DNA from: Desulfobacteraceae bacterium
GTDB taxonomy: Bacteria > Desulfobacterota > Desulfobacteria > Desulfobacterales > Desulfobacteraceae
Direction: 5' to 3'
Length of the DNA: 64,000 bases
Assembly (NCBI GenBank): GCA_004796375.1
Contig: QZLA01000109.1
Span: 1-64,000, forward strand
Shown: positions 4,531-14,862 of the stretch, in pieces
Position numbering within the stretch: the stretch's first letter is position 1
Layout of the letters: each line of letters opens with the position of its first letter
The notes under the pieces: generated by a model
What the model was told of the DNA's origin: nothing
What the model saw: the letters and a program-made list of their open reading frames with translations, nothing else
Database searches by the model: none
Position numbers and translations under genes: made by a program

Positions 4531-5676
4531 TCAGCAGGCATGATCGAGCTTTTCCTCATTTAAAGCGGTCTGCTTTACTCCGTCTGTGTTGCCGTGGGAT
4601 ACCTCCGGCTCAAGATCATCTGGCTCTGCATATTTGGTGGCAATGGCATTGAATTCTTTTTCATTCTTTAAGAATAGGTCAACCAGATCCGGATCAAATT
4701 GCTTTCCTTTGGAGTTCTTGATGATGGCAACGGCTTTGTCGTGTGAAAATGCAGGTTTATATACCCGTTTTGTGGTTAATGCGTCATAGACATCTGCCAC
4801 GGTCATTAATCGTCCGGACAACGGTATCTCCTTTTCCTTGAGGCCTTGCGGGTAACCACTGCCATCCCACTTTTCATGGTGGCTGTGTGCAATTTCGCGT
4901 GCAATGCTTAAAAAGGATTGTTTCCCCAGGCTTTTTTCAGATGCCTTGATGATATTTTTACCATAAATCGTATGTTGTTTCATCTGTTCAAATTCATGGG
5001 ATGTGAGTTTGCCGGGTTTTAGAAGCACACTGTCAGGAACCCCGACCTTGCCGATATCATGAAGCGGGGCAGATTTGACGAGCAATTCAATGATATTGTC
5101 ATCCATGGGATATTCAAGATTGCCGGACCCTGACCGCATGGCGATGGCAAGACATTGAACAAAGTTTTTGGTACGCTTGATGTGCCCGCCGGTTTCAGGG
5201 TCACGGAATTCCGCCAGATTACCTGCAATTTCAATGGTAACATCCTGGGTAAGATTTAATAAATGGGTTCTTTTAGACACGAGAAGTTCAAGGTTATCCC
5301 TGTGCTCTTTCAAAGCAATGTGATTTTTTACCCTCCGTTCAAGCAGCCTTGGATTGAACGGTTTAGTAATATAATCCACGGCTCCGTATTGTAATCCTCT
5401 GACCTCATCGTCATCGTCGTCCAGAGCGGTTAAAAAAATAATAGGGATATCCCGGGTATGACCACTGGATTTTAACCGGAGGCATACGTCGTACCCATTC
5501 ATTTCCGGCATCATGACGTCCAGTAAAATGAGATCGGGCTGCCCGTCATTGGCCAGGGAAATCGCGTCCTGGCCATTGGTCGCCACACTGATCAGATAAT
5601 GGCTGCTCAATGCACCAATCACAAGATCGATATTATGTCTGCTGTCATCCACAACAAGGATTTTTTTTGTTTTCAT
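4531..5676 (-). CDS. Response regulator with HD-GYP c-di-GMP phosphodiesterase domain
   Basis: This 381-aa protein has a receiver (~5-120: VVDDSRHN, phospho-Asp in LLDVMMPEMNG, KPF) and an HD-GYP domain (~150-345: HDIGK, HHEKWDGSGYP, DVYDAL). HD-GYP proteins hydrolyse cyclic di-GMP, and phosphorylation of the receiver normally gates the activity. The metal-binding HD and GYP residues are all present, so activity is expected. Its ATG overlaps the stop of the upstream hybrid kinase (ATGA), so the two are translationally coupled and are likely cognate partners. It is the probable output of this sensory operon, lowering c-di-GMP to change motility or attachment. That role is inferred from gene order. 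Confidence 0.93.
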   Translation of the reverse strand: MKTKKILVVDDSRHNIDLVIGALSSHYLISVATNGQDAISLANDGQPDLILLDVMMPEMNGYDVCLRLKSSGHTRDIPIIFLTALDDDDDEVRGLQYGAVDYITKPFNPRLLERRVKNHIALKEHRDNLELLVSKRTHLLNLTQDVTIEIAGNLAEFRDPETGGHIKRTKNFVQCLAIAMRSGSGNLEYPMDDNIIELLVKSAPLHDIGKVGVPDSVLLKPGKLTSHEFEQMKQHTIYGKNIIKASEKSLGKQSFLSIAREIAHSHHEKWDGSGYPQGLKEKEIPLSGRLMTVADVYDALTTKRVYKPAFSHDKAVAIIKNSKGKQFDPDLVDLFLKNEKEFNAIATKYAEPDDLEPEVSHGNTDGVKQTALNEEKLDHAC

Positions 5677-8600
5677 GCTATTTCCGGTTCATATTCATAG
5701 ATCAAGGTTTCATTCAGGTAATGTTCTGCTTTTTTAAACTGATATTCGTTAATCCATTTCAACAGGGGGGAGAGTCGGTCGTGATCGGCCTGACTAGTGG
5801 ATGTTGACAGGATTTTCTCTAGCACAGCCGTGCTTTCGATCGGTTGATGCTGTCTGATAAGTGCCATCAGTTTGGCCGTCAGTTCATCAGCCTGTTTATT
5901 GTCTTTTTTTTCCGCCTGAGCCTTAACAGGTATATCATTGTCACGGGATACCGCCCCCCGAGATGAAAGCAGTTTTTCCGCCTCTTTCGTCACTCCCGCC
6001 AGTTCCCTGAAAATGAGAGGGGTATCTTTTTTTATTACTGATTCATATTTATCTACGGTTGCATTGGCAGCAAGATCGTCATGAACGGTTTCTTTAAGAA
6101 TGGACTCCGACTTTTCAGCCAACCGGGACAAGTGGTTGGCACCAATCATCCGCGCCGTTGACTTCAAATTATGCAGGCGTAATCCAATGCTCTCAAAATT
6201 GACTTGGTTCAGATCATCGTTGAGCTGCGTCTCAAAATCCTCATAGGAACTGATAAACGTTTTCAGCATTTTCATAAACAACTGAGGATTGTGATTCACA
6301 TAATCCAATCCGGCATTCATGTCAATCGACGGTTCTTCAACCGGTGTCATATGGCTCATATGTTCAGGAGCCACGGTCAACCACTGATCAATGGTTTTGT
6401 AAAATAATTCCTGCCGAATGGGTTTCGTTATGCAATCATCCATACCACATTGCCTGCATCTGGCCTGGAACTCTTTAAGGGCATGACCAGTAATTGCAAT
6501 AATCGGCACACGCCCTGATCCATTCACATCAAGCCCCCTGATCAGACGTGATGCCTCATAACCGTCCATACCCGGCATCTGAATATCCATGAGGATGAGA
6601 TCAAATGGCTGAGACTTGACCATTTCAATGGCATCATAACCGGTTGAGGCTTCGAACAGCACCGCACCTTTTTTACTAAGGAATGCCGAAACAATCTCGC
6701 GGTTAATGGAATCATCATCCACAACCAGTACTTTCCTGGAATAAAGGCTGCTGCCTTCATCTTGACAGCCTGGTACCCTATATACGTCTGTTGCAGGAAT
6801 GGCACTGTTATGTTCACAACCATTCAGCAAACCCTTTATAAAACGCATTGGTGTAATGGTCTGGTCAAGAATTGAAAAATGAACACCATGCCGTTCGAAA
6901 AACTTTTGCTGTTTCATATTATGCTGTCCGGAAAAGTGACCGTTCTTCATAAGGAAGACGTGTAAGGCTGCTATTCCCATCAGTTTCTCAATTGTATCTG
7001 AATCTGCATTCAGGATCGATTCCATCTTGATCTCATCTACGAACAGGAACAGAGGCAGTGATTCCCTGGAACGGTAAAGAAGCAACTGAGTTGCCTTTCT
7101 TACGTTCTCGGTCATGATGCTGAAGACTTCAAGGGATTCAAGGTTCGATTTAAGCGAGTGCCCTGCATCTATATCTGCGCTCAAGATCACAGCGCCTGCA
7201 TGTTTCAGTTTTTTTACCGGAAAATGGGGTATCTCTTTGGTTCCTGACGATTTCAAGAGCAAGGAAATGCTGAACACCGACCCCTCGTCCGGACGGCTTT
7301 GCACATCAATCTCACCACCCATCAGGGCCAGCATTTTTTTAACAATCACAAGTCCAAGGCCTGTGCCGCCGTATTTTCGAGTTGTGGAGCTGTCCAGCTG
7401 CGTAAAGGGCTGAAAAAGCTTGGACAACTGAATATCTGACATGCCGATCCCCGTGTCCTTGACATGAATAGACAGCCGCTCAAATCCGTTTTCATCCTGA
7501 ACATGATCTGACATGACAATGACACTGCCTTCCAAGGTATATTTCAGAGCATTGCTGATCAGGTTCATTAGAATCTGGCTAATTCTTGCGGCATCCCCTA
7601 ATAAAAACATGGGCAGCGAGTGGTGATGCTCATATATCAATTTGATATCTTTTTCCTGGGCCGTATATTTGAGTACATCAAATATTTTTTCAATCAACGA
7701 ACCCAGCTGGAATTCCTGTTCAACTAATTCTATCTTGTCTGCTTCTATTTTTGTCAGATCAAGAATGTCACTGATAATGGATAGAAGGGCGTCTGCCGCA
7801 CCATGAATATTAGAGATAAAATGGTGCTGACTATCATCCAATGATGAATCCAGCAAGAGCCGGCTCATCCCCAGAATGGCATTCATGGGGGTCCTGATTT
7901 CATGGGACATGGTGGCCAGGAAATTAGTTTTGGCCCGTGTCGCAGACTCAGCCTGATTCTTTGCCTGTTTGAGTTGCTTGATCATTTGTTTTCGGCCGGT
8001 GATATCTTCTTTTACCGCCACATAATGGATAATATTGCCATCTGCATCGGTTATGGGTGAGATCGAGGCAGATTCCCAATACAGCTGACCATTTTTTTTT
8101 TGGTTGATAAATTCACCCTTCCATGTGTTGCCGCTGGAAAGGGTTGACCACAATTTTTTGTACTGTTTTGATGATGTCCTGCCAGCACTGAGCATTTTCG
8201 GGTTCTGCCCAATGGCTTCATCTGCCGAATACCCGGTAACTTCAGAAAATTTTGGATTAACATATTCGATATTACCGCTTGTGTCGGTAATCACCACACT
8301 CACAGGGCTGAACTCAACCGCCTGTGACAGACGCAGGATTTCTTTTTCCGTGTTCTTCTGCTCGGTGACATCCTGCATGATTTCCATAACCCTGGATGGC
8401 AGACCATTTTCGTCATAACCCGCAATACTGGTCCGGCACTGGAAAATCCGGTTCTGAGCATGAAGATCCTTATGCAAATAATTACTGACGCGGGGCTTTC
8501 CGTCTGCAAACGTCTCCTGAACAATACAGGACTTGCAATTCTCCGAAGCCCCACCGTATGCATTGATACATTTTTTGAATTCGATATCGTTTCCAAACAG

Positions 8601-9140
8601 GTTCCTGGCATGTTCATTGGCCCAGACAATGCTCATTGATTTGTCCAGTATGCAGATCGGATCGGGTATGGATGCCAGCATCCCGGCCAGCTCATTATCC
8701 TTCTGGATCAGGTCCTGGTTTATGTTCCACAATTCAGTCACATTCTCATGGGAAGCAACCGCATACCTCCGGTTTCCCATCATCACTGTGTTGAATATGA
8801 CTTTAAACCACCTTTTCTGGGTAGGGGAATGACATGGATATTCAATGGAAAACTCTTCAATCCTGCCGCAAAGAAGCTCGGCAAACCGCTGGGCAACCTC
8901 ATGTGCACCTTCGCTGCAGGCACCGACTGCCTGCTCGACAACCGTCAAGTATCGATGCCCCAGGCCGTAATTTTCGGTTTGAAGATCGTTTTCATCTGCA
9001 AAATTACGCCATGCCCGGTTGACATAAATAATTTCTGAAACATCATTCATCACTGCAATATGGTGCGGCAGGGCATCCAGTACAGACCTAAACAAATCAC
9101 CAGGTGTTGATAATGGCTCAATAGCGGCAGTTCGTTGCAT
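5673..9140 (-). CDS. Hybrid sensor kinase, PAS-HisKA-HATPase-REC-HPt (BarA/TorS-like layout)
   Basis: This 1155-aa protein has three PAS domains (roughly 12-130, 145-265, 275-390), HisKA (SHEIRTPMN), HATPase (NLISNALKYT, DTGIGM, GTGLGL), a weak receiver-like segment without a clear phospho-Asp, a true receiver (VVDDDSIN, LLMDIQMPGMDG, TKPI) and an HPt domain with the helix HNLKSTARMIGA that carries the phospho-His. No transmembrane helix is evident, so signals must be cytosolic or arrive through a partner. The built-in HPt could pass phosphate to the HD-GYP receiver encoded next. The gene starts 10 nt after the CheA-like gene, which suggests one transcript and a shared pathway with the chemoreceptor. 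Confidence 0.92.
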   Translation of the reverse strand: MQRTAAIEPLSTPGDLFRSVLDALPHHIAVMNDVSEIIYVNRAWRNFADENDLQTENYGLGHRYLTVVEQAVGACSEGAHEVAQRFAELLCGRIEEFSIEYPCHSPTQKRWFKVIFNTVMMGNRRYAVASHENVTELWNINQDLIQKDNELAGMLASIPDPICILDKSMSIVWANEHARNLFGNDIEFKKCINAYGGASENCKSCIVQETFADGKPRVSNYLHKDLHAQNRIFQCRTSIAGYDENGLPSRVMEIMQDVTEQKNTEKEILRLSQAVEFSPVSVVITDTSGNIEYVNPKFSEVTGYSADEAIGQNPKMLSAGRTSSKQYKKLWSTLSSGNTWKGEFINQKKNGQLYWESASISPITDADGNIIHYVAVKEDITGRKQMIKQLKQAKNQAESATRAKTNFLATMSHEIRTPMNAILGMSRLLLDSSLDDSQHHFISNIHGAADALLSIISDILDLTKIEADKIELVEQEFQLGSLIEKIFDVLKYTAQEKDIKLIYEHHHSLPMFLLGDAARISQILMNLISNALKYTLEGSVIVMSDHVQDENGFERLSIHVKDTGIGMSDIQLSKLFQPFTQLDSSTTRKYGGTGLGLVIVKKMLALMGGEIDVQSRPDEGSVFSISLLLKSSGTKEIPHFPVKKLKHAGAVILSADIDAGHSLKSNLESLEVFSIMTENVRKATQLLLYRSRESLPLFLFVDEIKMESILNADSDTIEKLMGIAALHVFLMKNGHFSGQHNMKQQKFFERHGVHFSILDQTITPMRFIKGLLNGCEHNSAIPATDVYRVPGCQDEGSSLYSRKVLVVDDDSINREIVSAFLSKKGAVLFEASTGYDAIEMVKSQPFDLILMDIQMPGMDGYEASRLIRGLDVNGSGRVPIIAITGHALKEFQARCRQCGMDDCITKPIRQELFYKTIDQWLTVAPEHMSHMTPVEEPSIDMNAGLDYVNHNPQLFMKMLKTFISSYEDFETQLNDDLNQVNFESIGLRLHNLKSTARMIGANHLSRLAEKSESILKETVHDDLAANATVDKYESVIKKDTPLIFRELAGVTKEAEKLLSSRGAVSRDNDIPVKAQAEKKDNKQADELTAKLMALIRQHQPIESTAVLEKILSTSTSQADHDRLSPLLKWINEYQFKKAEHYLNETLIYEYEPEIA

Positions 9141-9150
9141 ATGGACTCAC

Positions 9151-10836
9151 CTATATATTTTTTTCAATCATTTTTTCAATATCCAGGAACAATGCGGTAT
9201 GTCCTTGGATAATCATGCTGCCCTTCACTGATGAAGAAGTAAAAGTTCGTGTGTCTATATCCAATACCGTTTCCACGGTATCAAACGGTGGCGTGGCCAT
9301 TAATCCGATTTCTTTACCGTTCAAGCTGAAAACAATCACATCCTGAACATCCCTGAGCGGAAGTGGTTGGAGATCGATGAACTGGGAGATGTCGTAAAGC
9401 GGCAGTGCACCGCCTCTGTATTGAATCACCCGGCGGTCACCGATGATTTCAATAGCTGATGTGTCTATCCGTTCAATCCGTTCCACCGGTTCCAGTGGAG
9501 CGATGAAGTATTCGGTCTCATGATTTCTGAATGTGATCACTTGTTCAAGTGCGTCCCCAGATCTGTCAGCATCTGCGGGCGTTGATTCAACATACCTGGC
9601 TGAAGACAGCTCTCCCATTTGCGCAAGGTTTAAAATGTTTAATATGAGGGCAACACTGCCGTCCCCCATGATGGTTGCACCTGAAAATGCCCGGCATTGT
9701 TCTACATGCCTTCCAACAGGCTTGACGACAATTTCTTCTGAATCATAAAACTGGTTAACCACCAGACCATACCGGTAAGTACCGGCAGAAACAACAGCAA
9801 CGTGAATCGCTTTGCCGGAAGATTGGCGTCGATCATTACCTGTTCTTTTTCGCACGCACTTACCGGGTTTTGTTTTTCGTTCCTCCAGCTTTCCCGCCAC
9901 CATATCAAACTGCCTAGAGCGGCGGTCAGCTATGTTTTGCCGCCGGTCCGGCAACATCTTTCCTGTGTCTCTGTCCTCACAGGCTGCCTGAATGCCAAGC
10001 AGATCTGACAGGTTCAACAACGGCAGCAGTTCACCTCTTAATCGAATAACCGCCGTATCACCCACCCGCTCAATTCGTTCTTTTGCATCTGCCAATGGAA
10101 TCCGGATCAACTCTTTCAGATTGGCCTGCGGAATGGCATATCTTTCAGAACCGGCACCAATGATCTGGCTGGGGATAATGGCAAGGGTCAACGGCAGCCG
10201 GATCTGAACGATTGTTCCCTTACCGGGTTCTGATTCCATTTGGGTGATACCCCCAAGATGTTCAACGGCAGAGACAATATGATCATCCAATCGATCAAGC
10301 TCGTCGCCATACCCATCATCTGAAATGATAATATTTACCTGCCCGGTATCACTGAATGCTTTCAGTGTAACGGTTCCGGTACGCTGTTTTCCATAGGCCG
10401 CTCGCTCATCAGGCGGTTCAATATTCACCCTTACCGCCCGGGAAACCAATTGGTGAAGGGGAGTACTGATGGCCTCCAGGATGGTTTTCTCAATCTCCAC
10501 GTTCTGGTTTTCGATTACAAAATCAATGGATTTGTCCTGTTCCATGGCTAGATCCCTGACGACCCTGCTGAACCTGCTGATTACTGAATCCAATGACTGC
10601 ATCCGTGTTTTCATGATCGCTTCCTGGATCTCTGATGTGATCAAATCAATTCGCTGGCTTGACAGTTCAGCCATTCTGGAATTGGCAGACCTGATTCCCT
10701 GCATCAACTGGTTCCGGCATAACACCAGTTCTCCTGCAAGCCCCATCAGCGAGTCCAGAAGATTGAGATTGACCCGGATAAACCCGGTGTCTTTATCGGG
10801 TGCCGTTCTGACAGTGTTCATATTCATTTCCTTCAT
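9151..10836 (-). CDS. CheA-like pseudokinase scaffold with two CheW domains
   Basis: This 561-aa protein begins directly with a CheA dimerisation domain (~18-125: LLDSLMGLAGELV, KTRMQSLDSVISRF, FSRVVRDLA). There is no N-terminal phosphotransfer (P1) or CheY-binding (P2) domain. The ATP-binding part is degenerate. The CheA N-box HLVRNxxDHG reads QLVSRAVRVN, G1 survives as DDGYG, and the ATP lid with the GRGVGMD box is deleted, so the chain jumps to the final strand and LPLTLAI. Two CheW-like domains follow (~225-400 and ~420-561). It can probably dimerise and bind receptors but should not phosphorylate. Internal ATGs at 10827 or 10821 have better ribosome-site spacing. It sits between the receptor gene and a hybrid kinase. 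Confidence 0.85.
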   Translation of the reverse strand: MKEMNMNTVRTAPDKDTGFIRVNLNLLDSLMGLAGELVLCRNQLMQGIRSANSRMAELSSQRIDLITSEIQEAIMKTRMQSLDSVISRFSRVVRDLAMEQDKSIDFVIENQNVEIEKTILEAISTPLHQLVSRAVRVNIEPPDERAAYGKQRTGTVTLKAFSDTGQVNIIISDDGYGDELDRLDDHIVSAVEHLGGITQMESEPGKGTIVQIRLPLTLAIIPSQIIGAGSERYAIPQANLKELIRIPLADAKERIERVGDTAVIRLRGELLPLLNLSDLLGIQAACEDRDTGKMLPDRRQNIADRRSRQFDMVAGKLEERKTKPGKCVRKRTGNDRRQSSGKAIHVAVVSAGTYRYGLVVNQFYDSEEIVVKPVGRHVEQCRAFSGATIMGDGSVALILNILNLAQMGELSSARYVESTPADADRSGDALEQVITFRNHETEYFIAPLEPVERIERIDTSAIEIIGDRRVIQYRGGALPLYDISQFIDLQPLPLRDVQDVIVFSLNGKEIGLMATPPFDTVETVLDIDTRTFTSSSVKGSMIIQGHTALFLDIEKMIEKNI

Positions 10837-10850
10837 CCTTTTGGGTCCAT

Positions 10851-10883
10851 CCCTCTACCGGCGGTCTTCCAGCCGGTAGAGGG
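10851..10883 (-). repeat. 12-bp perfect hairpin between receptor and CheA-like genes
   Basis: CCCTCTACCGGC and GCCGGTAGAGGG are perfect inverted arms around a 9-nt loop, in the short gap after the chemoreceptor stop codon. No T-run follows on the minus strand, so this is not a standard intrinsic terminator. It may stabilise the receptor mRNA or reduce read-through into the next gene. Confidence 0.7.
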
Positions 10884-10892
10884 TAAAGATAT

Positions 10893-12941
10893 TCAGTTCA
10901 ACCTGAAACGGCTGACCATTTGGGTCAAGTTTTCAGCAAGGTGGGATAAATCGCCTGCACTGGTCATTACCTGTGAACTGCCGGCACTCATTTCCCCGGT
11001 TGAATGGCTGACTTCTGAAATATCCCGCGTCACTTCGCTGGCTACTGCCGATGTCTGATTGACATTCTCGTTGACTTCAGACAATCCTAGAGCCGCCTGG
11101 CTTACATTATTGGAAATCTCCTGGGTCGTGGCGCTCTGCTCTTCGATAGCCGTAGCAATGGACGCAACGATCGTGTTGATTTCATTGATGATATTCACAA
11201 TATCTTCAATGGCGTTCACCGATTCAATCGTGGTGTCCTGAACCCCTGAAATTCTTGAACTGATCTCGTTGGTTGCTTCTGCTGTCTGCTGCGCAAGTGC
11301 CTTGATCTCGCCTGCAACCACTGAAAACCCTTTTCCGGCCTCTCCTGCTCTGGCCGCCTCAATGGTTGCATTCAATGCCAGCAGGTTGGTCTGTTCGGAG
11401 ATATCGGAAATAGTGTCCGTCACCTTGTGGATTTCGCCCGCCGCCTGCTTCAATTCCTCGACTTTTTTTGAAACATCACGGGCTTTTGACACGGCCATGT
11501 TTGTGGTCTCACTCCCGTTTGCCGTATTTTCGGCAACTTCCTGGATCGTGGCCGTCATCTCTTCTGCCGCACTGACAATCATCTGGATATTCGTTGTGGT
11601 TTGTTCTGTGGCGGCTGCCACGCTGGTCATGCTGCTGCTCATCTGTTCGGCAGCAGCAGATACATCGTTTGATTTTGCAGCGGTTTGCTCTGAATTGGAA
11701 GCCATCTGGTCAGAGATAGCGGACAACTCGGTAGAGGATGATGTCAGGGTCTGGGTACCTTGAACAATATCGGTGAACATATGGTTCAGGTTCTCTGACA
11801 TCTGGTTGAGTGAACCTGCGAGCACACCGACCTCGTCCTTTTGATTGACATCCAGCTTCTGGGTCAGATCGCCGGAGGCTATTGTTTTTGCAAAATTAAC
11901 CCCCCTAATGATGGGCGCACTGATACTTTTTGCAATGAGCATTGTCAACAGGATCCCGATACCAATGGCCACCATGCTTGCAACCGTGCCCTGAGCTTTG
12001 GCACTGCCTGCCATTTTCAGCATCTGTTGATCGGTCATGATATTTTCTCTGGCTGTCTTGCGGATATCTCCCAGGATCGCCTGGGTTTCTTTTAGTGCCG
12101 GAATCGTAGTTTCCGCATAGATGGCCGTGGCCTTGTGCATCCCGTCCAGCGCGCTTACCGCTTCTTCTTTCAAGGTCCTGATGGCCGTTAAAGTGGATGC
12201 CAGTATCGGGAGGGTTTTTGATTCAAATACGGCTTTGGCTGCATCATTTGACTCTGCCATGGCAGCCGTGATATCCAAGGCAGATGCATGCAGTTTTTCA
12301 TGATTCACCAGAAGATCATCCCACGCCTTTTTGAATTCATCACTTCCAAATGAAACAATCGTTTTCGCCTCCTCAGACTCAATCCACTTGCCTAACGCAC
12401 ACTGCCTATAATCGGTCTCCACAGAGAGGGGTTCATTTTTCAGAAGAGAATCCCTGATGCTGGATGCCCAGTTCAGGTGATCAATCTCGCGTTCAAGAAG
12501 AAGGGTCGGCAGGGTAGTGTCTGCCTGCCTGAAATTCTCTTTAATGGCGGCAGCCGATTCATGGAGCTTCCGGTGCGGCTCCTCAATCGCTTTCAACAGG
12601 GGCGCAAGATCCGGTACCAGCTGTTCTGCCCCTTTTCGGCCATCACCGTATAACCATTTGCCGAATTCACATTGATGGTCGTCCATCTGGACATTCAGTT
12701 CTGTTACTGTATCATCGGTCAGTACGGCATTTACCTGATTCACCCAGTTTAAATGATCCACCTCTTTTTGAGCGATCAATGCATCCAGTTTATTTCCGCC
12801 AATCACTTCTCCTGCATTCCGGACAATGCCGCCGATGTTTGAATAGCTAAGGTAGCTGATGATACCGAGAATCAGAACAATACTTCCGATTCCAATCCCG
12901 ATTTTGTAAGATACCTTAAGATCTCTCCATACTTTCATCAT
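10893..12941 (-). CDS. Methyl-accepting chemotaxis protein with two tandem CZB domains
   Basis: This 682-aa chemoreceptor has TM1 (~13-32), a large extracytoplasmic region, TM2 (~315-335), HAMP and a complete signalling domain with the hairpin tip [19 protein letters not shown]. The sensory region holds two successive CZB (chemoreceptor zinc-binding) units. Both keep the His/Cys/His/His ligands: HLNW, CEFGKW, HRKLH in the first and HLNW, CALGKW, HEKLH in the second. CZB domains bind zinc and in characterised receptors sense zinc or oxidants through the Cys. They usually sit in the cytoplasm, so tandem copies between two membrane helices are uncommon. No CheR, CheB, CheW or CheY gene is nearby. 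The next gene is the CheA-like scaffold. Confidence 0.92.
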
Positions 12942-13022: not shown

Positions 13023-13038
13023 AACAAGAAGTGTGCCA
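13023..13038 (-). promoter_or_regulatory. Candidate sigma-54 (-24/-12) promoter of the chemoreceptor operon
   Basis: On the minus strand TGGCAC is followed by 5 nt and TTGTT, close to the consensus TGGCAC-N5-TTGC with one change in the -12 element. It lies about 82-97 nt upstream of the chemoreceptor ATG. The next gene upstream is a sigma-54 activator, which supports the call. The non-consensus -12 keeps it tentative. Confidence 0.5.
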
Positions 13039-13176: not shown

Positions 13177-14589
13177 CTATGAGGATTTTAACTGAAACTT
13201 GCGGATATAGTGGTAGATCCTGTTTTTGCTCAGGCCGGATTGCCCGGCAGCCATGTCAAGATCCCAGTCACAGCTTGCGAGAAGCACCTTAAAGTACTCA
13301 TATTCTATTTCATTTATTGCATTGTCCCGGTAATCTTTAAACACAGGCGGCGGTGAGCCGGGATCAAGGTGAGATGCCTTGGCAGGACTGTGTGTATTGA
13401 CCGATTTGAGATCAAACCCTTTTTCCAGATGAGAGATACGGATCGTTTCAGGTAACTGCATGGGATAAATCAATTCAAGATCAGGGTCTGTCAGGATGAC
13501 CCGCTCAATAACATTGACCAGTTCCCTGACATTACCCGGCCAGTCGTAATTCGCCAGCATGGTAATGGTTTCCGGCAGCAATGCTTTGGCCGGCAGTTGA
13601 TGTTCTTTACACAGTTTATCCACATAATGCAGGGACAGTGCCTTGACGTCGCCTTCCCGGAACCGCAGCGCGGGGACCTCAATCACAAACGTCTGGAGCC
13701 TGTGATAAAGATCTGCCCTGAATGTACCTTCATGGACCATTTTTTGAAGATCTCGATTCGTGGCGGATATCAGACGAAAACGGCTTGACAGTTCTTTTGC
13801 ACTTCCCACAGGCCTGTATTTTTTTTCCTGCAAAACCCTCAAAAAAGCCTTCTGGGCAGATAGCGGCAGTTCTCCGATCTCATCCAAAAACAGCGTACCG
13901 CTGTGGGCCATCGAGATTAATCCTTCGGAGGATTTATCTGCACTGGTGAAGGCACCTTTTTTATGTCCGAACAGCATGCTCTCAATCAGGGTTTCCGGCA
14001 GGGAAGCGCAGTCTACCACCACATATTCTCCTGTGTTTGAAGAAGAATTATCATGGATCATACGGGCCAGGAGTTCCTTTCCGGTTCCACTTTCACCCTG
14101 AATAAGGACATTTACCGAAGTTGATGCACTGTAGGCAACCTGATCCAGGCATTTCATGAGTGCAGCGCTTTTTCCAACTATTCCCTGTGTGGAAAGGATC
14201 AGCTTCCTTTCCTGTTTCTGTTTTTCTTTTCTGTAGTCAAGTGCCCGCTTAATCTGGAGTATCAGCTTATCCTTGTAGAAAGGCTTTTCGATATAATCCC
14301 AGGCACCATTGTTAATGGCAAGTTTTGCACCTTTAGTGCTGCCGAAAGCCGTGATGATGATGACGATAGGCGGCTGGGGCATCTGCCGGATAATGGACAA
14401 GGCTTCGAGTCCATTGCCGTCAGGAAGATTGACATCAAGAAAGATTAAATCAAATGTCTGCTGGCTGAGCAGTTCAAGGCCTTGTTTCAAAGTACCGCTT
14501 AGAAACGCCCGGTGATCCATCTCCTCAACCCTTGCAGAGATGACTTCCCTGATAAAATCCTCGTCGTCAATAATTAGAATATCTGCCAT
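13177..14589 (-). CDS. Sigma-54-dependent NtrC-family response regulator
   Basis: This 470-aa protein has a receiver (ILIIDDEDF, phospho-Asp in IFLDVNLPDGNG, Lys in EKPF), a sigma-54 AAA+ domain (Walker A GESGTGKE, the sigma-54 contact loop GAFTSA, Walker B TLFLDEIGEL, DWPGNVREL) and a C-terminal Fis-type helix-turn-helix (LSKNRIYHYIRKF). It remodels sigma-54 holoenzyme when phosphorylated. I start at the ATG at 14589, which gives the typical MADILIIDDE beginning. A TTG at 14616 is in frame. It lies 235 nt upstream of the chemoreceptor operon on the same strand, with a -24/-12-like promoter between, so it probably activates that operon. The partner kinase may be one of the two hybrid kinases. 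Confidence 0.92.
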   Translation of the reverse strand: MADILIIDDEDFIREVISARVEEMDHRAFLSGTLKQGLELLSQQTFDLIFLDVNLPDGNGLEALSIIRQMPQPPIVIIITAFGSTKGAKLAINNGAWDYIEKPFYKDKLILQIKRALDYRKEKQKQERKLILSTQGIVGKSAALMKCLDQVAYSASTSVNVLIQGESGTGKELLARMIHDNSSSNTGEYVVVDCASLPETLIESMLFGHKKGAFTSADKSSEGLISMAHSGTLFLDEIGELPLSAQKAFLRVLQEKKYRPVGSAKELSSRFRLISATNRDLQKMVHEGTFRADLYHRLQTFVIEVPALRFREGDVKALSLHYVDKLCKEHQLPAKALLPETITMLANYDWPGNVRELVNVIERVILTDPDLELIYPMQLPETIRISHLEKGFDLKSVNTHSPAKASHLDPGSPPPVFKDYRDNAINEIEYEYFKVLLASCDWDLDMAAGQSGLSKNRIYHYIRKFQLKSS

Positions 14590-14862
14590 GATATCTATAT
14601 TTTGTATTCGACTCAATCGATCAAATCAAGCAAATTCTTTGTTTTGTTTGCTCCATATTTTGTACTGCACATGTACACAAATCAAACCGGGAGTGGGTGA
14701 TATAACTATCTATATCAAAAGTGGCGTGATTTTTCCAAATGTCTGCGCGGGTATCATCCATTGGAAATATTTTTATTGCAGTCTTGTGAATCGTGCCAAT
14801 ATTGTGTTCATACACCCGATACTCCCTCTATTTATTTTGAGTCCAAGGACTAAGGTGATGAT

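Follow-up and report, generated by a model that had tools for sequence, protein, structure and literature searches.

Results

Gene Content of the Locus

The window analyzed here is a stretch of 64,000 nucleotides from a Desulfobacteraceae contig (QZLA01000109.1), and the gene under study encodes a short relative of the chemotaxis kinase CheA (table 1). The coordinates given for this gene in the first-pass annotation were correct; the reading of the open frame placed it on the minus strand, with no internal stop and with a surrounding open frame of only 567 amino acids. The gene order was a sigma-54 regulator, a methyl-accepting chemotaxis protein (MCP), the CheA-like protein, a hybrid histidine kinase (HK), a REC-HD response regulator, and a PAS/GAF HK. 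In the MCP, the best of the two CZB (zinc-binding) stretches lay well ahead of HAMP.

Table 1. Positions of Genes and Features at the CheA-Like Locus of the Window
Feature	Position	Strand	Basis or remark
CheA-like protein, predicted kinase-dead, 561 aa (P3, P4 remnant, split P5/CheW1, CheW2)	9151..10836	-	
P3 dimerization domain, residues 20-77	10606..10779	-	72% identity to Desulfospira full-length CheA
P4 remnant, residues 80-217	10186..10599	-	Model superposition on T. maritima P4
Degenerate N-box QLVSRAVRVN, residues 129-138	10423..10452	-	Alignment
Junction of ~47-49 missing residues (ATP lid, F- and G2-box), residues 183-186	10281..10290	-	
P5/first CheW domain, residues 218-412, with family-typical insertion at 284-342	9601..10185	-	
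Second CheW domain, residues ~430-558	9163..9549	-	
Intercistronic hairpin, MCP stop to CheA-like start, 12-bp stem, -28.1 kcal/mol	10837..10892	-	
MCP with two CZB stretches, HAMP, MCPsignal	10893..12941	-	Pfam
Sigma-54-like -24/-12 element TGGCAC-N5-TTGTT, 97 nt ahead of MCP start	13023..13038	-	Score 18/20
NtrC-type sigma-54 response regulator, upstream neighbor	13177..14616	-	Pfam
Hybrid HK (PAS, HisKA, HATPase_c, REC, Hpt), starting 10 nt past the CheA-like gene	5673..9140	-	
REC-HD response regulator (HD-GYP-like), 4-nt overlap with the hybrid HK gene	4531..5676	-	

Domain Architecture and Loss of P4 Catalytic Elements

In a Pfam scan of the protein, H-kinase_dim (PF02895) matched residues 19-77 (6.9e-11, 42.9 bits against a cut-off of 23), which identified a P3 domain, and CheW (PF01584) matched in three stretches (117.8 bits, 3.6e-34), which identified P5/CheW. 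These three stretches made up two CheW domains, the first of them being interrupted by the insertion of about 59 amino acids. An insertion of this kind has been described for the CheA of Desulfobacteraceae, and the double CheW is a trait of the F5 class (Berry et al. 2023, PMC10782961). As had been claimed in the first-pass annotation, P1 and P2 were absent and the chain started at the dimerization domain: the Pfam scan found neither an Hpt/P1 domain with a phospho-acceptor histidine nor a Response_reg match, the latter corresponding to the C-terminal REC of CheV. The HATPase_c model (PF02518) stayed below its threshold (21.2 bits, cut-off 26.4), and no NCBIfam equivalog was found for the family, the best matches being far under cut-off. 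A weak Pfam match to condensin was disregarded.

For P4 we assumed the usual names and places of the N, G1, F, and G2 boxes. In the alignment with the full-length Desulfospira CheA, G1 (SDDGYG) was the sole intact box, the N-box was altered as previously noted, the F-box was entirely gone, G2 was reduced to one aligned residue, and 47 columns of the P4 region were absent; in the alignment with T. maritima CheA, there was a break between chain residues 167 and 217. These results agreed with the earlier description of a loss of about 50 residues that comprises the ATP lid and G2, and likewise with the retention of the flanking parts, as the P4 core, P5, and the second CheW domain were all present. 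The missing lid was not found in the other frames of window positions 8901-11100, where tblastn with the lid segment from the same genome gave a best E value of 0.13 (control, 7e-39). Judged by sequence, kinase function has almost certainly been lost, and the protein derives from CheA but is no CheA kinase in its domain content.

An AlphaFold model of the protein, a structure prediction having been suggested earlier, showed a mean pLDDT of 73.8 and a pTM of 0.38, and its residues 80-217 were folded like T. maritima P4 without the lid (136 residues, rmsd 1.1 A, Z 24.0). This fold was partly imposed, because the input alignment consisted mostly of intact CheAs, and the pTM made the modeled arrangement of the domains uninformative. 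With G1 kept and the fold predicted to be kept, the P4 remnant may still bind nucleotide. Compared with the mean identity of full-length proteins to Desulfospira CheA (n = 33; P3 86%, P5 halves 79% and 86%, P4 76%), the protein showed 72% in P3, 68% and 74% in the P5 halves, and 53% in the remainder of P4; in the P3-P4 linker the corresponding values were 81% and 49%. P4 and the linker were thus the most eroded parts, and the earlier description of the deletion as a clean loss was overstated, since both diverge faster and the edges of the deletion vary by lineage.

CheA Paralogues in the Same Genome

The genome that contains the window (G000; 5.6 Mb in 410 contigs) encodes five CheA-type dimerization domains. 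One of them belongs to a full-length relative of 1079 aa on contig C405, which has Hpt, intact P4 boxes, two CheW domains, and REC, and whose gene adjoins cheW, cheB, and cheR (cheB and cheR recognized by eye). The window protein has P3, the P5 with the split insertion, and the second CheW domain in common with this F5-like CheA (53-56% identity in two tblastn pieces), but it lacks P1, the P1-P3 region, the N-box residues, the ATP lid and G2, and the C-terminal REC. A second lid-deleted copy (532 aa) was observed on contig C57, in a locus that resembles that of the window in its order of HK, sigma-54 regulator, MCP, and CheA-like gene and that continues with a 130-aa protein up to the contig end. 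The last two domains are parts of more distantly related CheAs, in which an Hpt shares the reading frame. Hpt matches numbered 12 in the genome, one of them within the hybrid kinase downstream of the window gene.

Recurrence of Short CheA Paralogues in Desulfobacterales

Short CheA paralogues were present in at least 15 of the 299 Desulfobacterales genomes searched (9 of 59 genomes of the family and 6 of 240 further genomes of the order), at no fewer than 17 loci; about 32 further known genomes of the order lay outside the search with the window query. Short frames that appeared to be cut at a contig end were left out (G005, G014, G024, G125, G117, G153, and G018:C195), the 5'-open state being confirmed for those of G125, G117, and G018, and also uncounted were G254 and G083 and the distant CheA-like copies of G064, G221, G090, and G173. 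Those of G173 are three ORFs in a row (L149:3975-14018), one of which measures only 307 aa. Among the matches listed for a phylum-wide sample of 297 genomes, some of them from the order, no clear short member was found outside the order; several short matches in this sample (e.g., G407, G380, and G333) were suspected contig edges. All 15 genomes with short members also had a long-frame relative of at least 895 aa among the matches listed, except G018, where the relative is a fragment at the edge of a contig that includes G2 and REC.

CheW domains were retained in all short members, the frames were open at 16 of the 17 loci, and identity to Desulfospira CheA ranged from 47% to 83% in P3 and from 48% to 93% in the P5 halves where these domains were present. 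Five loci had intact P4 boxes (L026, L028, L143, L146, and L029 of G027, the last split by a frame change), and thus kinase loss is not universal among the short paralogues. One locus was ambiguous, with a mild G2 change (L145, Desulfobotulus alkaliphilus), and eleven were catalytically broken, with damage that increases from substituted boxes to a deleted lid and finally to the absence of the whole of P4. The lid was deleted at five of these (the window, L018, L023, L024, and L025); N-, F-, or G2-boxes were altered in L142, L150, and L151, and G2 in L027; in L030 (429 aa) P4 was wholly lost and P3 directly joined to P5; and L031 (351 aa) consisted of the CheW part only, P3 being missing. L151, from Desulfoluna limicola, kept a weak Hpt in which, by eye, the phospho-acceptor histidine was replaced. 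The collection of named genomes added another member without P1, L062.

The same deletion, which the first-pass annotation had proposed to look for in homologues, was therefore found at five loci in four genomes. Homologues with full domains at the equivalent position had been named as a sign of a sequencing artefact, and L026 and L028 do have intact P4 boxes; yet the recurrence of lid-deleted copies in four genomes makes a local artefact very unlikely, and with the missing segment in no frame around the gene, a sequencing or assembly error was rejected.

In a tree of 52 proteins, all from the window's own order and with a bootstrap that had not settled, well supported branches required at least four switches between the full-length and the short form. 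The window protein and the C57 copy were paired with a support of 95/88, for which the tool warned of long-branch joining. The lid-deleted label changed three times on the drawn tree, only one change being forced. Loss of the lid probably occurred more than once, given that L023 clustered with P1-less, P4-keeping proteins (94/98, not starred) and differs in the edges of its deletion. The earlier claim of selection and not random decay was strengthened by frames that stay intact at an identity of 44-52% across independent genomes, by the several separate losses, by the strongest erosion being in P4 and its linker, and by the constant retention of CheW. As for the claim of a scaffold, kinase loss and non-random upkeep held up, but the scaffold role itself is our inference.

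Linkage to a Receptor Gene and Putative Regulatory Elements

An MCP gene was at most two genes away at 17 of 18 short loci, the exception, L150, starting 194 nt from a contig end. The 15-residue MCP tip sequence and the C-terminal arm of 121-122 residues match most MCPs of the same genome, and therefore these receptors would be expected in common arrays with the receptors that the full-length CheA serves. A sigma-54 regulator gene adjoined the MCP/CheA-like pair, or was one gene off, at 7 of 11 loci. Sigma-54-like sites scoring at least 18/20 were observed upstream of the MCP at five of the 11 loci, the window included, a score that simple base shuffles reached in 0 to 0.5% of cases; a good site was lacking at the other six, and that of L023 sits within an upstream small gene. 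In addition, a strong hairpin of varying sequence was present at 8 of 11 MCP/CheA-like junctions (the window, L018, L023, L024, L025, L026, L027, and L028) compared with 1 of 12 controls at equal strength per base, and it may act as a leaky terminator and so determine how much receptor is made relative to CheA-like protein.

Proteins of about 130 aa that form one family were encoded near several loci (L018:7685-8077, L023:4383-4787, L025:9592-9981, L027:5356-5775, L028:11613-12119, and L031:9231-9617). By eye they resemble a degenerate receiver, the three scanned (L018, L023, and L025) had no Pfam match, and the family occurred in 63 of 291 genomes of the order, also on an ordinary cheA contig (G000:C6). 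At L024:5936-7816, the lid-deleted CheA-like gene was followed by genes for a free Hpt, a REC-SpoIIE protein, and an anti-sigma-like ATPase (HATPase_c_2).

Discussion

Relation to Known CheA Proteins and Adaptors

A survey of 13,673 CheA sequences considers P1, P3, P4, and P5 as the core of all CheAs, reports HATPase_c in every homologue with little size variation of the kinase domain, and uses HATPase_c together with CheW as the identifier of CheA homologues (Berry et al. 2023, PMC10782961). Accordingly, a lid-deleted variant is not described in the available parts of this survey, and identification by these two domains would tend to miss kinase-less derivatives. Our literature search on kinase-less CheA found no description of this short family. 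The closest case in the same parts of the survey is CheA3 of R. sphaeroides (Cereibacter), a CheA paralogue whose HATPase lacks helices and ATP residues and that keeps CheW; however, the N-terminal Hpt of CheA3 is functional, and the protein works together with CheA4, a kinase encoded in the same operon (Berry et al. 2023, PMC10782961), whereas the window protein has no Hpt and no adjacent CheA4-like gene. A bipartite CheA, with a CheA4-like kinase and a separate Hpt, was also rejected for the window protein itself, in which a competent P4 was not found; the P1-less relatives L026, L028, L143, and L146 do have the P4 boxes. The short CheA of E. coli (CheAS) and the window protein both lack P1, but CheAS has an active P4. 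CheV is composed of a CheW domain and a C-terminal REC domain, whereas the window protein descends from CheA, retains P3 and part of P4, and has no REC. Nevertheless, CheV, an additional adaptor for particular chemoreceptors (Ortega and Zhulin 2016, PMC4742279), would be the closest functional analogy within what that source covers, as the role proposed here is that of an extra CheW-type adaptor for specific receptors.

A Proposed Receptor-Dedicated Adaptor and Its Alternatives

We propose that the protein is most likely a kinase-dead adaptor for the upstream-encoded MCP that brings this receptor into arrays shared with the full-length CheA, to which we assign a probability of roughly 0.6. This proposal builds on the observed architecture, loss of catalytic elements, recurrence, and gene linkage. 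A duplicated double-CheW (F5-like) CheA would first have lost P1/P2 and REC and later ATP binding, leaving a protein that would now serve as a structural adaptor dedicated to that MCP. Because the P3 dimer bundle and both CheW folds are kept, it should enter the receptor/CheW rings, and it could form heterodimers with the full-length CheA through P3; the receptor would thereby be coupled to the shared array and kinase density lowered locally, with a presumed effect on kinase output. The neighboring sigma-54 regulator probably turns on the MCP/CheA-like pair, and the intergenic hairpin may fix the ratio of the two products.

Against this adaptor speak the P4 boxes kept at five of the 17 short loci, the nucleotide binding that the P4 remnant may retain, the six of 11 loci with no good sigma-54-like site, and the position of the L023 site within a gene. 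In addition, the window operon continues into the Hpt-containing hybrid kinase and the REC-HD protein, which could be the true partners. The MCP and the kinase-dead CheA would then form a kinase-free complex that signals, as an allosteric phosphorelay adaptor, to co-encoded hybrid kinase/Hpt and REC proteins, such as the REC-HD protein of the window and the REC-SpoIIE protein of G046, and not to CheY. The short distance to the hybrid kinase gene, the genes that follow the lid-deleted copy of L024, and the HK and sigma-54 regulator genes that flank many loci are all consistent with such a relay; we nevertheless consider it unlikely, as the downstream genes vary by locus (HK, CheW, a small protein, or unrelated genes), the C57 copy precedes only the 130-aa protein before its contig ends, and the HK/sigma-54 pairs may do no more than switch on transcription of the operon.

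The stepwise series that ends in the CheW-only L031, the long branches of the tree, and the one split copy (L029) could instead reflect a redundant CheA on its way to being lost, in which CheW has persisted only as erosion began at the N-terminus and P4. Such decay appears improbable in view of the frames that are open at all loci but one, the upheld identity of P3 and the P5 halves, the two divergent lid-deleted copies within one genome, and the preserved linkage to an MCP. Equally improbable, in our estimate, is a negative partner that pairs through P3 with the full-length CheA and tunes total kinase activity in a dominant-negative-like manner. The high P3 identity to the full-length Desulfospira CheA and the full-length paralogue in the same genome would suit this pairing, but L031 has no P3 and yet occurs in the same type of locus. 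Heterodimers of this kind would be compatible with the receptor-dedicated adaptor that we favor.

That relatives in the order repeatedly lost the phosphorylation machinery and kept the connecting parts suggests that CheA is reusable as a structural adaptor. More tentatively, and with less than even odds, Desulfobacterales might repeatedly convert CheA into an array-embedded pseudokinase, a receptor-dedicated core unit free of kinase, and their genomes might mix kinase-bearing and kinase-free units, which would set the kinase stoichiometry for each receptor or divert its signal to a co-encoded phosphorelay. The family of short paralogues shows a repeated conversion of CheA to a non-kinase protein tied to particular receptors, and, if its placement in arrays is true, it would offer a natural system in which to study the influence of kinase density and of P3/P5 contacts on chemoreceptor arrays.
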